64,000 nt of DNA from Zoogloea ramigera (lineage in GTDB: Bacteria > Pseudomonadota > Gammaproteobacteria > Burkholderiales > Rhodocyclaceae): the NCBI RefSeq assembly GCF_006539865.1, contig NZ_BJNV01000002.1, forward strand, positions 62,001 through 126,000, given 5' to 3'. The number at the start of each line of letters is the position of its first letter. Within the stretch, counting starts at the first letter, position 1. The notes under the pieces were generated by a model that had not been told where the DNA came from, did no database searches, and was given only the letters and a program-made list of their open reading frames with translations. The translations under genes and the position numbers were made by a program. Shown piece by piece: positions 4,048 to 16,678 of the stretch.

Positions 4048-4195
4048 GCCTGGCGGCGGCAAGCATGGAGCGCGTGCCGGCCGGCGCGCCCCGGCTGCAG
4101 GGCTTCCCAGCCTTTTGCTGCGCCGCAGCTTTGTGATAAAAGATCGGGTTTCCCGTGGCCGCCTCCGGCTACGGGCCCTGATTGCGAGGCCCGCG

Positions 4196-6673
4196 TTGTC
4201 CCAGCCGTTGCCCCAGACTCCCTCCGTGCCCGAGCACGATTGCTATCATTGCGGCCTGCCTATCCCCGACGAGGTCGACCTGGCGGTGGATATCGAAGGC
4301 ACCCGCCACCAGATGTGCTGCACCGGCTGCCAGGCGGTGGCCCAGTCCATCGTCAGCAGTGGCCTCATCGACTACTACAAGCGTCGCGACGCGATGCCCG
4401 AGCAGGCCCGCGAGGCGATGCCCGACGAGCTGAAGGATCTCGGCCTCTTCGACCACCCGGACTTCCAGCAGGGCTTCGTCAAGCCCATCGGCGAGCACGA
4501 GCGTGAGGCCGCGCTGATCCTCGAGGGCATCACCTGCTCGGCCTGCATCTGGCTCAACGAACAGCACGTGGCCCACCAGCCCGGCGTCACGGCGGTCGAC
4601 ATCAACTACGCCACCCGGCGTGCCCGCGTGCGCTGGGACGAGCGCCGCATCAAGCTCTCCGACATCCTCGCGGCGATCCAGGCCATCGGCTACCGGGCCT
4701 ATCCCTACGACGCGGCCCGCTCCGAGCAGATCTCCCAGCGTGAGCGCCGCAGTGCCCTGTGGCGGCTGTTCGTGGCCGGCTTCGGGATGATGCAGGTGAT
4801 GATGTACGCCTTTCCGGCCTACATTGCCGCCGATGGCGAGATCACCCCCGACATCGAGGTGATGATGCGCTGGGCCAGCCTGATCCTCACCGCGCCGGTG
4901 GTGCTGTACTCCGCCGCGCCTTTCTTCAGCCACGCCTTCCGCGACGTGCGCCTGCGCCGGCTGGGGATGGATGTGCCCGTCGCTCTCGGCATCGGGGCCG
5001 CCTTCATCGCCAGCTGCTGGGCCACCTTCACCCGGCAGGGCGAGGTGTATTTCGACTCGGTGACGATGTTCGTGTTCTTCCTGCTGTGCGGCCGCTACGT
5101 CGAGATGCTGGCCCGCCAGAAGGCCGTGCGTGGCGTCGAGGAGCTCGGCAAGGCCTTGCCCGCCTTCGCTGAACGCCTGGCCGCCTGGCCTGCCGGCGAG
5201 GGCGAGCGGGTGCCCGTCTCCCAGCTCCAGCCGGGCGACGTTATCCGCGTCAAGCCGGGCGAGACGGTGCCCGCCGACGGTGTGGTGATCGACGGCGAGA
5301 GCGAGGCCAACGAGGCCCTCCTCACCGGCGAGAGCCGCCCGGTGCCCAAGCGCCCCGGCGCCGAGATCACCGGCGGCACGGTCAACGTCAGCAGCCCCCT
5401 GTGCCTGCGGGTCAGCCGCACCGGCGAGCACACCCGCCTCGCGGCGATCCGCCAGCTCATGGAGCGCGCCTCCGCCGAGAAGCCGCGGGTCGTCCAGCAG
5501 GCTGACCGGGTGGCGGCCTACTTCATCATCGCGCTGCTGGTGCTGGCCTGCGTCACCGCCGGCTGGTGGTACTGGCATGACCCAGACCGCGCCCTGTGGG
5601 TCTTCGTGTCGGTGCTGGTGGTCAGCTGCCCTTGCGCGCTGTCGCTGGCGACGCCAGTGGCGCTCACCGTCGCCACCGACGCCCTCGCGCGGATGGGCGT
5701 CCTCGTCACCCGCGGCCACGCCATCGAGGCCCTGGCGCGGGCCGAGCATTTCGTGTTCGACAAGACCGGCACGCTCACCTACGGCGAGATGCGCCTCGAG
5801 ACGCTCCATTGCCTCGGCGACGCCAGCCCGGCCAGCGTGCTCGGCCTCGCCGCCGCCCTCGAGCAGGGCTCCGAGCACGCCATCGCCCGGGCCCTGCGCC
5901 TTCGGGCGGTGGAGGAGGGCGTCGCACTGCCGGCCTTCCTTGCCGTGACTGCCACCACCGGCCAGGGCGTCGCCGGTGAGTTCGACGGCCAGCAATATCG
6001 CATCGGCCGCCCCGCCTTTGCCGCCGGCCTCGCTGGCACGCCCGTCCCCGAGGTGCTCCAGCAGGCCGAACAAGGCGGCGGGACGGTGATCGCGCTGGCC
6101 TCATCCGCCGGCTGGCTCGGCGGCTTCGTGCTCAGCGACGGGCTGCGGGAAGACTGCGAGGCCACCTTCGACGTCCTGCGGGCGCAGGGGCTCAAGCTCT
6201 CGATCTTCAGCGGCGACACGCCCTCCACGGTCGAAGCCATGGGCCGCCGCCTCGGCGTCAGCCACGCGCTGGGCGGCATGACCCCGGAAGGCAAGCACGC
6301 CGGCCTGCGTCAGTTGCAGCAGGGCGACGCGGTGATCGCGATGGTCGGCGATGGGGTGAATGACGCGCCGGTGCTGGCCCAGGCCCAGGTGTCGGTGGCC
6401 ATGGGCGGCGGTACCGACCTGGCCCGCAACCAGGCCGACATCGTGCTGCTGAGCGCCCGGCTCGGCGCCCTCGCCGATGGCCTCGCACTGTCCCGCCGCG
6501 CGCTGACGATCATCCGGCAGAACCTGTGGTGGTCCTTCGTCTACAATTTCACCGCGGTGCCCCTGGCCATGTCAGGGCTTGTGACGCCCTGGATGGCCGG
6601 CATCGGCATGTCGGCCAGTTCCCTCTTCGTCGTACTGAACGCCTTGCGCCTGCAGCGCGGGGCCAAGCGCTGA
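4196..6673 (+). CDS. ccoI: Copper-type P1B ATPase CcoI (FixI), cbb3 oxidase maturation
   Basis: About 825 residues from a TTG at 4196 (GAGG lies six bases upstream). A GTG at 4226 or a TTG at 4115 are alternative starts, so the N-terminus is uncertain. Domain order: an N-terminal cysteine cluster (CYHCG, then CCTGC) typical of CcoI/FixI; a heavy-metal-associated domain with CSAC near residue 114; membrane helices; CPC (about 478-480) in helix 6; the phosphorylation site DKTGT (D about 522); and GDGVND near 718. It pumps copper across the inner membrane for assembly of the CuB centre of cbb3 cytochrome oxidase. The ccoS gene immediately downstream makes CcoI much more likely than a detoxifying CopA. 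Confidence 0.92.
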   Translation: MSQPLPQTPSVPEHDCYHCGLPIPDEVDLAVDIEGTRHQMCCTGCQAVAQSIVSSGLIDYYKRRDAMPEQAREAMPDELKDLGLFDHPDFQQGFVKPIGEHEREAALILEGITCSACIWLNEQHVAHQPGVTAVDINYATRRARVRWDERRIKLSDILAAIQAIGYRAYPYDAARSEQISQRERRSALWRLFVAGFGMMQVMMYAFPAYIAADGEITPDIEVMMRWASLILTAPVVLYSAAPFFSHAFRDVRLRRLGMDVPVALGIGAAFIASCWATFTRQGEVYFDSVTMFVFFLLCGRYVEMLARQKAVRGVEELGKALPAFAERLAAWPAGEGERVPVSQLQPGDVIRVKPGETVPADGVVIDGESEANEALLTGESRPVPKRPGAEITGGTVNVSSPLCLRVSRTGEHTRLAAIRQLMERASAEKPRVVQQADRVAAYFIIALLVLACVTAGWWYWHDPDRALWVFVSVLVVSCPCALSLATPVALTVATDALARMGVLVTRGHAIEALARAEHFVFDKTGTLTYGEMRLETLHCLGDASPASVLGLAAALEQGSEHAIARALRLRAVEEGVALPAFLAVTATTGQGVAGEFDGQQYRIGRPAFAAGLAGTPVPEVLQQAEQGGGTVIALASSAGWLGGFVLSDGLREDCEATFDVLRAQGLKLSIFSGDTPSTVEAMGRRLGVSHALGGMTPEGKHAGLRQLQQGDAVIAMVGDGVNDAPVLAQAQVSVAMGGGTDLARNQADIVLLSARLGALADGLALSRRALTIIRQNLWWSFVYNFTAVPLAMSGLVTPWMAGIGMSASSLFVVLNALRLQRGAKR

Positions 6674-6681
6674 GGTTGGTC

Positions 6682-6879
6682 ATGGAAAGCCTGTATCTGC
6701 TCATCCCCTTGTCGATCGTGCTGGTCTTCGTGATCGCCGTCATCTTCTGGTGGTCCGTCCGCAGCGGCCAGTTCGACGACCTCGAAGGGCCTGGCTACCG
6801 CGTCGTCAGCGATGACGATACGCCACCCGCCGATGCCCGCGCCAAGGCGCCCGACCCGGGGCGTCGCCCAGCGCCCTGA
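6682..6879 (+). CDS. ccoS: Cytochrome cbb3 oxidase maturation protein CcoS
   Basis: 65 residues: a single N-terminal membrane helix (about residues 4-24), then the WWSVRSGQFDDLEGPG segment that is diagnostic for CcoS, and a charged, Pro/Ala-rich tail. It starts 8 bases after the ccoI stop, so the two are probably cotranscribed. CcoS is needed to insert heme and copper cofactors into the cbb3-type oxidase. The structural ccoNOQP genes are not in the window. Confidence 0.92.
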   Translation: MESLYLLIPLSIVLVFVIAVIFWWSVRSGQFDDLEGPGYRVVSDDDTPPADARAKAPDPGRRPAP

Positions 6880-6998
6880 CGGGAGCACGCCTCGACTTTG
6901 GAATTTGCCAGCAGGCGGGTGCGGCGCTTGCTGCCATTGGGGGCGTCAGCGTCTGCGTCGGCAGCCACGGCCTCTTTCTCCCTGTGCTTGACATGGTT

Positions 6999-7012
6999 TT
7001 GATTCAGGTCAA
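6999..7012 (+). promoter_or_regulatory. FNR/ANR-type binding site
   Basis: The bases read TTGAT-TCAG-GTCAA, nine of ten half-site positions of the FNR consensus TTGAT-N4-ATCAA. Its centre (7005.5) lies 41.5 bases before the start predicted from the -10 element at 7035-7040, which is the class II activator position. It is not upstream of a protein gene but of a short transcript closed by an intrinsic terminator. It should respond to loss of oxygen. Confidence 0.75.
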
Positions 7013-7034
7013 ATTCTGCGCCGCTGGTCTCCGG

Positions 7035-7040
7035 CATAAT
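7035..7040 (+). promoter_or_regulatory. -10 element of the FNR-dependent promoter
   Basis: CATAAT matches the sigma-70 -10 consensus at five of six positions. No -35 hexamer is evident; the FNR-type box takes its place, as in class II FNR promoters. Transcription would start at about 7047. Confidence 0.65.
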
Positions 7041-7046
7041 CCGTTC

Positions 7047-7161
7047 CAGGTTGAGGACGTGATCACGAGCAACAACAAGCGCGTCCTTGGGGCCCTCTGG
7101 TGGCCCAAAGCTAAAGTCTCTCTGTTGGGGTTGGGGGTGCGCGATGCGCACCCTTTTTTTT
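7047..7161 (+). ncRNA. Putative FNR-activated small RNA
   Basis: About 115 nt between a predicted FNR class II promoter and a perfect intrinsic terminator, with no convincing reading frame inside. Visible folds: AGGACG (7054-7059) pairs with CGTCCT (7082-7087) and encloses a loop containing AACAACAAG, which fits the ARN pattern bound by the distal face of Hfq; GGGCC (7090-7094) pairs with GGCCC (7102-7106); then an unpaired stretch with TCTCTCTG (about 7117-7124) before the terminator hairpin. An A-rich loop, an unpaired pyrimidine seed and a terminator U tract are the layout of an Hfq-dependent trans-acting RNA. Enterobacterial FnrS, neisserial AniS and Pseudomonas PhrS are known oxygen-responsive RNAs of this kind; no sequence kinship is claimed. 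It lies between ccoS and ndk. It could instead be a short leader, but it terminates before ndk. Confidence 0.6.
7135..7161 (+). terminator. Intrinsic terminator of the small RNA
   Basis: An eight-base perfect stem (GGGTGCGC at 7135-7142, GCGCACCC at 7146-7153) is followed directly by eight T residues (7154-7161). It separates the FNR-controlled transcript from ndk downstream. Confidence 0.9.
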
Positions 7162-7279
7162 CGCCCGTCTCAGCCGGGTCGACCGTTCTCCCATCATCTC
7201 CCGGCATACCCTGCTGCGGCACTCTTACATTCCGTAATCGTCTCGTCGTTCCGAAAAACGCCGAATCGACGTACCAACC

Positions 7280-7288
7280 TGCTAAAAT
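7280..7288 (+). promoter_or_regulatory. Extended -10 promoter for ndk
   Basis: TGC-TAAAAT is an extended -10 motif (TG one base before the hexamer). No good -35 is seen, which extended -10 promoters tolerate. The start would be near 7295, giving a 44-base leader before the ndk ATG. It lies after the small RNA terminator, so ndk has its own promoter. Confidence 0.5.
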
Positions 7289-7338
7289 TTCAGGCTTTCG
7301 GTTTTTCGACCACCTCAGCCCTACTGGAGTTTAGTCTC

Positions 7339-7764
7339 ATGGCCATTGAACGCACCCTTTCCATCATCAAGCCCGATGCCGTCGCCAAGAACGTGATCGG
7401 CCAGATCTACGCCCGTTTCGAAGGCGCCGGCCTCAAGGTCATCGCCGCCAAGATGGCCCACCTGTCCGAGCGTGAAGCCGGCGAGTTCTACGCCGTGCAC
7501 AAAGAGCGCCCCTTCTTCAAGGATCTGGTCTCCTTCATGACCTCCGGCCCGGTGATGATCCAGTGCCTGGAAGGCGAGGGCGCCATCGCCAAGAACCGTG
7601 AGCTGATGGGCGCCACCGACCCGAAGAAGGCCGACAAGGGCACCATCCGCGCCGACTTCGCCGAGTCCATCGACGCCAACGCCGTGCATGGCTCCGACGC
7701 CGCCGAAACCGCCGCCGTGGAAATCGCCTTCTTCTTCCCCGGCATGAACGTTTACAGCCGTTGA
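7339..7764 (+). CDS. ndk: Nucleoside diphosphate kinase
   Basis: 141 residues, the standard length. The catalytic phospho-histidine is H117 in the NAVHGSD motif, and the N-terminal segment [11 protein letters not shown] is the family signature. It transfers the gamma phosphate of ATP to other nucleoside diphosphates in the cytoplasm. The ATG at 7339 has GGAG nine bases upstream; the open frame upstream runs back through the small RNA terminator and is not coding. It leads the conserved block ndk-rlmN-pilW-rodZ-ispG-hisS. Confidence 0.97.
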
Positions 7765-16435: not shown

Positions 16436-16678
16436 ATGAGCAACAAGGGGCAACTTTTGCAAGATCCCTTCCTGAATGCCTTGCGGCGTGAGCACGTTCC
16501 GGTCTCCATCTACCTCGTGAACGGCATCAAGCTGCAGGGGCAGGTCGAGTCCTTCGACCAGTACGTCGTGCTGCTGAAGAACACCGTGACGCAGATGGTT
16601 TACAAGCATGCCATCTCCACTGTCGTGCCGGCGCGCCCGGTCAATATCCAGCAGGAACAAAACGAGGCAGCAAGCTGA
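16436..16678 (+). CDS. hfq: RNA chaperone Hfq
   Basis: 80 residues. Sm1 and Sm2 motifs are complete: [13 protein letters not shown] at the proximal face, [21 protein letters not shown] abridged here as NGIKLQG...FDQYVVLL, and YKHAIST with the conserved histidine. The C-terminal tail is short, as in most betaproteobacteria. It mediates small RNA-mRNA pairing, which is relevant to the putative small RNA at 7047-7161. It is followed by hflX as in E. coli. Confidence 0.97.

Follow-up and report, generated by a model that had tools for sequence, protein, structure and literature searches.

The window analysed here is a stretch of 64,000 nucleotides from Zoogloea ramigera, in which a predicted small RNA (sRNA) is placed behind ccoS on the forward strand. 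A copper P-type ATPase gene, probably of the ccoI/fixI type (4115-6673; Pfam E1-E2_ATPase, ATPase-cat_bd and HMA), is followed by ccoS (6682-6879), the translation of which is a cbb3 oxidase maturation protein of 65 residues. Downstream of ccoS lie an FNR-type box, TTGATTCAGGTCAA (6999-7012, nine of ten half-site positions), a -10 element read as CATAAT (7035-7040) and the predicted sRNA of about 115 nt (7047-7161), delimited by promoter spacing at its putative start and by a terminator at its end. Within the transcript we distinguish a 5' stem-loop with an A-rich loop (7053-7088), a conserved 22-nt pairing core, GTCTCTCTGTTGGGGTTGGGGG (7116-7137), the last Gs of which form the foot of the terminator stem, and the intrinsic terminator itself (7133-7161). 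The next gene, recognized from its translation and from locus comparison, is ndk (7339-7764), and hfq, coding for the likely RNA chaperone, is found at 16436-16678, all in the same orientation. Upstream of the ccoI/ccoS end, the window also carries the TRAP-type dicarboxylate transporter genes dctP and dctQ (971-2767).

A preliminary description of this DNA, generated from its letters, had proposed an FNR-activated sRNA with a nine-of-ten box centred 41.5 bases before the start predicted from CATAAT. Re-reading confirmed this geometry: the box, TTGAT-TCAG-GTCAA, is centred at 7005.5, and the predicted start at 7047 lies 41.5 bases downstream. No second box of at least nine of ten was detected within the 64-kb window, and when the upstream stretch was shuffled 5000 times with dinucleotides preserved, a 9/10 box with a -10 element at the same spacing arose once. 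To extend the analysis, we closely read 62 copies from related genomes (30 best loci plus 40 chosen ones, minus 8 duplicates). A box of eight to ten matches is present within 190 nt upstream of the core in 60 of these, and a box of at least 8/10 followed by a -10 element at 20-23 nt in 58, as compared to 0.16% of 3100 shuffled upstream stretches. Of the two exceptions, in G041 a 9/10 box precedes the core by 206 nt, and in G028 an ompW-like gene (219 aa, named by eye) lies between the 8/10 box and the core, which there is located at position 2422 on the reversed strand of locus L041; thus, the core of G028 would constitute the 3' end of that mRNA.

As read from the box, the promoter would respond to an activator of the FNR family. 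Which member is a separate matter, as FNR relatives of the DNR/NnrR type, responding to NO or nitrite, read boxes similar to those of FNR, and the RNA might then answer to denitrification rather than to oxygen itself, leaving the sRNA reading as such unchanged. Many of the boxes indeed follow TTGAC/T-N4-G/ATCAA, many of the hosts are denitrifiers, and a flavohemoglobin is among the candidate targets considered below. Several copies, on the other hand, display full 10/10 FNR-type palindromes, and the linkage to ccoS suggests oxygen, so we regard a DNR/NnrR-type activator as unlikely, if far from negligible, and retain control by FNR as the preferred reading.

The transcript was predicted to end after about 115 nt in a hairpin followed by eight T, and such a hairpin is present: the stem pairs 7133-7142 with 7146-7155 (10 pairs, loop of 3), with the eight T at 7154-7161. 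Such a Rho-independent terminator with a long T run is a trait of the Hfq-dependent trans-acting class of sRNAs. Across 43 distinct sequences, 98.7% of cells in the stem are paired; as seven of nine pairs are invariant, however, covariation adds little. The whole transcript folds no more stably than its shuffles (z -0.33), so that the fold alone is no evidence and conservation has to carry the case. In a single-strand fold, unpaired probabilities along the core range from 0 to 0.95, with much of it partly paired with itself and with the terminator foot. The statement that the transcript holds no protein frame stands in part, as the alignment gaps look non-coding, but a mechanical frame (6984-7334) does cross the sRNA. 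Hfq is encoded where proposed (Pfam PF17209, E 4.5e-30). The A-rich loop, which had been considered to fit the ARN rule for Hfq, exists but is conserved within Zoogloea only; the 5' stem that carries it shows some compensatory changes among 11 copies of the genus.

We then assessed how widely the element is distributed. Searched as DNA, 6985-7165 has matches in 219 of 296 family genomes and 53 of 68 genera, most of the matches listed spanning the last 45-50 nt only. The conserved part consists of GUCUCUCUGUUGGGGUUGGGGG and the terminator; within the core, the 15 nt CTCTCTGTTGGGGTT do not vary in any of the 45 aligned copies, nor do most letters of the terminator stem. The 5' half, by contrast, differs among genera in both sequence and length, placing the core 28-67 nt from the predicted start. 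Loss of box and hairpin in close relatives would have counted against the preliminary description, yet box, -10, core and hairpin are kept in nearly all 62 copies, with the 5' half changing. Its proposed seed for target pairing, TCTCTCTG, is correct but too short, the conserved pairing stretch measuring 22 nt.

The genomic position is equally stable, congruent with the original placement behind the cbb3 oxidase genes. On the same strand and at most 520 nt upstream, ccoS is found in 58 of 61 loci of one set and in 112 of 113 of a second, the latter counting loci with at least 350 nt of upstream sequence (five shorter loci excluded). The location between ccoS and ndk thus holds for its first half, with ccoS a near-constant neighbour, but ndk follows in a minority of loci, Zoogloea among them: 10 in the first set, all Zoogloea, and 12 in the second, at least seven of them Zoogloea. 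Hosts among the matches listed include Azoarcus, Aromatoleum, Thauera, Zoogloea, Denitromonas, Uliginosibacterium, Sulfuritalea, Sulfurisoma and one Hydrogenophilus. In one genome, G244, the sRNA and its promoter occur twice in closely similar form, on two contigs (L042 and L043) and each time behind ccoS, representing either a duplication or a mixed assembly.

Could the conserved element simply be the terminator of the cco operon next to an unrelated promoter, yielding an RNA devoid of targets? The fixed position behind ccoS and the strength of the terminator would be accommodated by such a scenario. It needs neither an invariant 15-nt stretch ahead of the terminator nor a promoter whose spacing is maintained in 58 of 62 copies, however, and the matching start regions in an unlinked gene, described below, also speak against it. 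We consider it very improbable. Rather, the conservation supports the original interpretation of the element as a putative sRNA.

Applied to the whole order, a covariance model built on the 3' part listed 131 of 399 genomes at E <=0.1. Only two strong copies belong to other families of the order; these are in G466 and G485 (E about 5e-15), and each has a 10/10 box and lies behind ccoS. The model scored G362, G469 and G333 at E 1e-7 to 3e-6. Among the weaker matches, the letters of L114-L128 were read, and most of these resemble ordinary terminators without the core. In one of these loci, L127 (1501-1560, G512), a full FNR-type palindrome precedes an AniS-like pyrimidine/GU stretch with a terminator by 148 nt; the AniS model gave no report for it at E <=0.5, and it is possibly another oxygen-controlled sRNA in a different family. 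No sRNA match was obtained in the plasmid collection.

Some of the weak order-wide matches proved to be antisense to gene starts. A target pattern, CCCCAACAGAGAGN{3,12}ATG, yielded 27 matches in 296 genomes against one for the reversed pattern; we took 13 for the sRNA gene itself, read in antisense, and the remaining 14 for separate loci, 8 of which are DsrC-like. Shortened by one base, the pattern occurs at 41 places (the 27 included) in 40 of 296 genomes, compared with two when reversed. The DsrC-like protein has 109 residues, retains the last cysteine only and belongs to the TusE/DsrC family, scoring below the TusE cut-off. From the DsrC matches listed we assembled 44 start regions of this weaker-scoring paralogue class (40, and 4 later), of which 40 derive from sRNA-bearing genomes and four from three genomes in which no sRNA was detected; the seven g11 genomes recovered with the pattern do not contribute to this set. 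Start codons of the first 40 regions were assigned by script in 36 cases and by hand in four.

In 37 sRNA-bearing genomes, 31 of the DsrC-like start regions pair with the core at -30 kcal/mol or below (median -36.7), and addition of three further ones (-32.5, -28.4 and -15.8) brings the total to 32 of 40. The remaining eight are weaker, and two or three of the genomes lack a site altogether (L400 -13.2, L444 -15.8, L378 -20.8), the added region at -15.8 belonging to a different-looking gene. At the same cut-off, a stretch farther upstream in the same DsrC-like sequences scored in 0 of 37 and the canonical two-cysteine dsrC in 0 of 29, the latter from 30 loci, 29 of them usable, with at least two of the 30 genomes (G004 and G065) having no detected sRNA. 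None of 500 shuffled cores paired as low on average with the DsrC-like starts, and DsrC-like genes from genomes without a detected sRNA gave 0 of 4 (-17 to -23; the fourth -19.5), absence in G017, G065 and G183 being judged by the family DNA search only. Canonical dsrC starts nevertheless pair a little more strongly than expected, 3 of 500 shuffled cores reaching equally low values, suggesting that part of the signal is plain anti-Shine-Dalgarno character. The predicted pairing spans about -30 to -5 relative to the start codon, over the Shine-Dalgarno sequence, which in DsrC-like genes often lies within ACAGAGAGA, while canonical dsrC has mostly AGGAGA-type sequences. In these relatives the core is thus complementary to ribosome-binding sites of unlinked genes, another trait of the Hfq-dependent trans-acting class.

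The G-rich core, together with the fact that candidate targets differ among lineages, might also hint at an RNA that acts as a sponge or titrates a protein, instead of repressing mRNAs. The sites are however located at start codons of protein genes, covering the Shine-Dalgarno sequence, and by eye no repeated GGA-type CsrA motif is apparent in the core, rendering this alternative very improbable.

The situation is different in the genome from which the window comes. None of the 23 Zoogloea genomes searched, some of them incomplete, yielded a DsrC, and hence the best target does not apply there. In the own genome, a 14-mer search returned 13 matches, including the sRNA, and the reversed control gave 9; in the 23 Zoogloea genomes, a 10-mer followed by ATG occurs at 9 places, as opposed to 4 when reversed. 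These pattern searches show little or no excess over control. Two candidate matches of the own genome fall at gene starts, those of an FlrC-like response regulator and of a TehA-like transporter. The FlrC-like site reaches -32.4 (1 of 200 shuffles as low), but the contiguous match occurs in three near-identical copies; among 21 genus orthologues, the value is equalled by at most five of 200 shuffles in 10 and by a larger number in 11. The TehA/SLAC1-like gene reaches -28.8 (1 of 100 shuffles as low). A scan of 1886 starts in the window gave a best value of -33.4, from which no target is claimed.

Other candidates are weaker. For flavohemoglobin, four of seven close Zoogloea orthologues pair at -30 or below (L402 at -45.3, L404, L405 and L406), two pair poorly (L407 -15.0, L408 -23.3) and L403 was left out. 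In a more distant set of four homologues, with L410 left out, the own genome's L412 (-19.6) and L409 (-14.0) lack a site, and L411 reaches -26.9. A MOSC-domain protein, the family being assigned from L160, has CCAACAGAGAGA before its start codon in three Zoogloea genomes (L159, L160 and L161). Further candidates are a catechol 2,3-dioxygenase in G028, PobA in G270, DsrE-like proteins in G015 and G101 and a ferredoxin in genus g44; matches to DsrE-like, PobA, FolE2, ferredoxin, PEPCK-like and FtsH-like genes, the last two named by eye, are each confined to one genome or one genus. We treat flavohemoglobin, catechol 2,3-dioxygenase and PobA as leads to possible single-lineage targets. Some of the candidate enzymes need oxygen for their reaction, which, as single cases, would fit a repressor acting under anoxia.

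Next, we compared the element with known sRNAs. At gathering threshold, Rfam reports one tRNA and no sRNA family in the window, and a permissive scan of 6900-7330 gave weak scores for SorY, ftsZ-DE, AniS and sR4. SorY of Rhodobacter (RF02651) is known from the singlet-oxygen response. The likeness to it is weak but recurrent (22-29 bits, E 0.02-0.5) and concerns CUGUUGG together with the terminator foot; the scores, 22.3 bits in the window and up to 28.9 in relatives, fall far short of the threshold of 111. Weak SorY-like scores with the common motif CUGUUGG recur in L107, L109, L108 and L083 (E 0.04-0.5). FnrS, from Escherichia coli and relatives, is a base-pairing sRNA, activated by FNR, that lowers functions dispensable in the absence of oxygen. 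The locus shares with FnrS an FNR-type box near -41.5 and an own terminator, but FnrS has no match in the window at gathering or in 6900-7330 at E <=10, and the sRNA described here is distinguished by one long conserved core beside the terminator and by its linkage to ccoS. Targets of FnrS are described in PMC8595263.

AniS of Neisseria meningitidis (RF02274) is betaproteobacterial, induced by anoxia under FNR and linked to Hfq (PMC4423775). The box and its class-II spacing would be compatible with FNR control of the kind reported for AniS, and both RNAs exhibit a pyrimidine stretch followed by a G-rich terminator foot, but the Rfam score is 14.7 bits (E 7.4) against a threshold of 50 and the core differs. 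The S17/bdhR1 'toxic' sRNA family (RF02278) is reported to have a 27-nt stretch that is fully conserved throughout the Betaproteobacteria, including Aromatoleum, and that pairs at ribosome-binding sites (PMC11722255). RF02278 has no match in 6900-7330 at E <=10, and the text of PMC11722255 names neither FNR nor cco, the distinction from S17 being drawn from the Rfam model and the published description. In the open-access literature, as judged by title and start of the abstract among the matches listed, we found no sRNA behind ccoS and no FNR-controlled sRNA in the host's family. Most likely, the sRNA resembles FnrS and AniS in kind but constitutes a new family.

Collectively, these findings point towards the following model, built from sequence comparison. 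As oxygen falls, an FNR-family activator bound at -41.5 would turn on the promoter right behind ccoS, giving rise to a trans-acting sRNA, about 75-120 nt long in most copies, that would end at its own terminator. Its single, nearly invariant 22-nt stretch is predicted to pair, probably helped by Hfq, with Shine-Dalgarno regions of the C-rich/AGAGAG kind that lie between about -30 and -5 relative to the start codon, and pairing would block ribosome binding. As an apparent low-oxygen switch is combined with a core matching the ribosome-binding site of a sulfur-metabolism gene in many relatives, the sRNA probably switches off selected genes in the absence of oxygen. In sulfur-type relatives, the main conserved target would be the single-cysteine DsrC-like protein; lineages may add targets, some oxygen-dependent, such as flavohemoglobin in some Zoogloea, catechol 2,3-dioxygenase and 4-hydroxybenzoate 3-monooxygenase. 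We assign a probability of roughly 0.85 to an FNR-activated, ribosome-blocking, trans-acting sRNA behind ccoS with the DsrC-like gene as main target in sulfur-type relatives.

The family of Azoarcus, Aromatoleum, Thauera, Zoogloea, Sulfuritalea and further genera comprises major denitrifiers and degraders of aromatics. More tentatively, at somewhat below even odds, the sRNA may represent an RNA arm of the FNR regulon throughout this family, with an invariant 22-nt stretch at the terminator tied to the cbb3 locus and targets that evolve matching ribosome-binding sites, joining oxygen sensing to sulfur metabolism through the single-cysteine DsrC-like protein or, elsewhere, to oxygen-dependent aromatic breakdown and NO removal. 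If under oxygen control, as it appears to be, an RNA conserved in the majority of the family genomes searched would add a layer to the anoxic switch of these organisms. It also illustrates with unusual clarity how the start region of a target can keep pace with an sRNA stretch that itself stays fixed, and the link to the DsrC-like protein suggests a concrete, testable role in sulfur metabolism.
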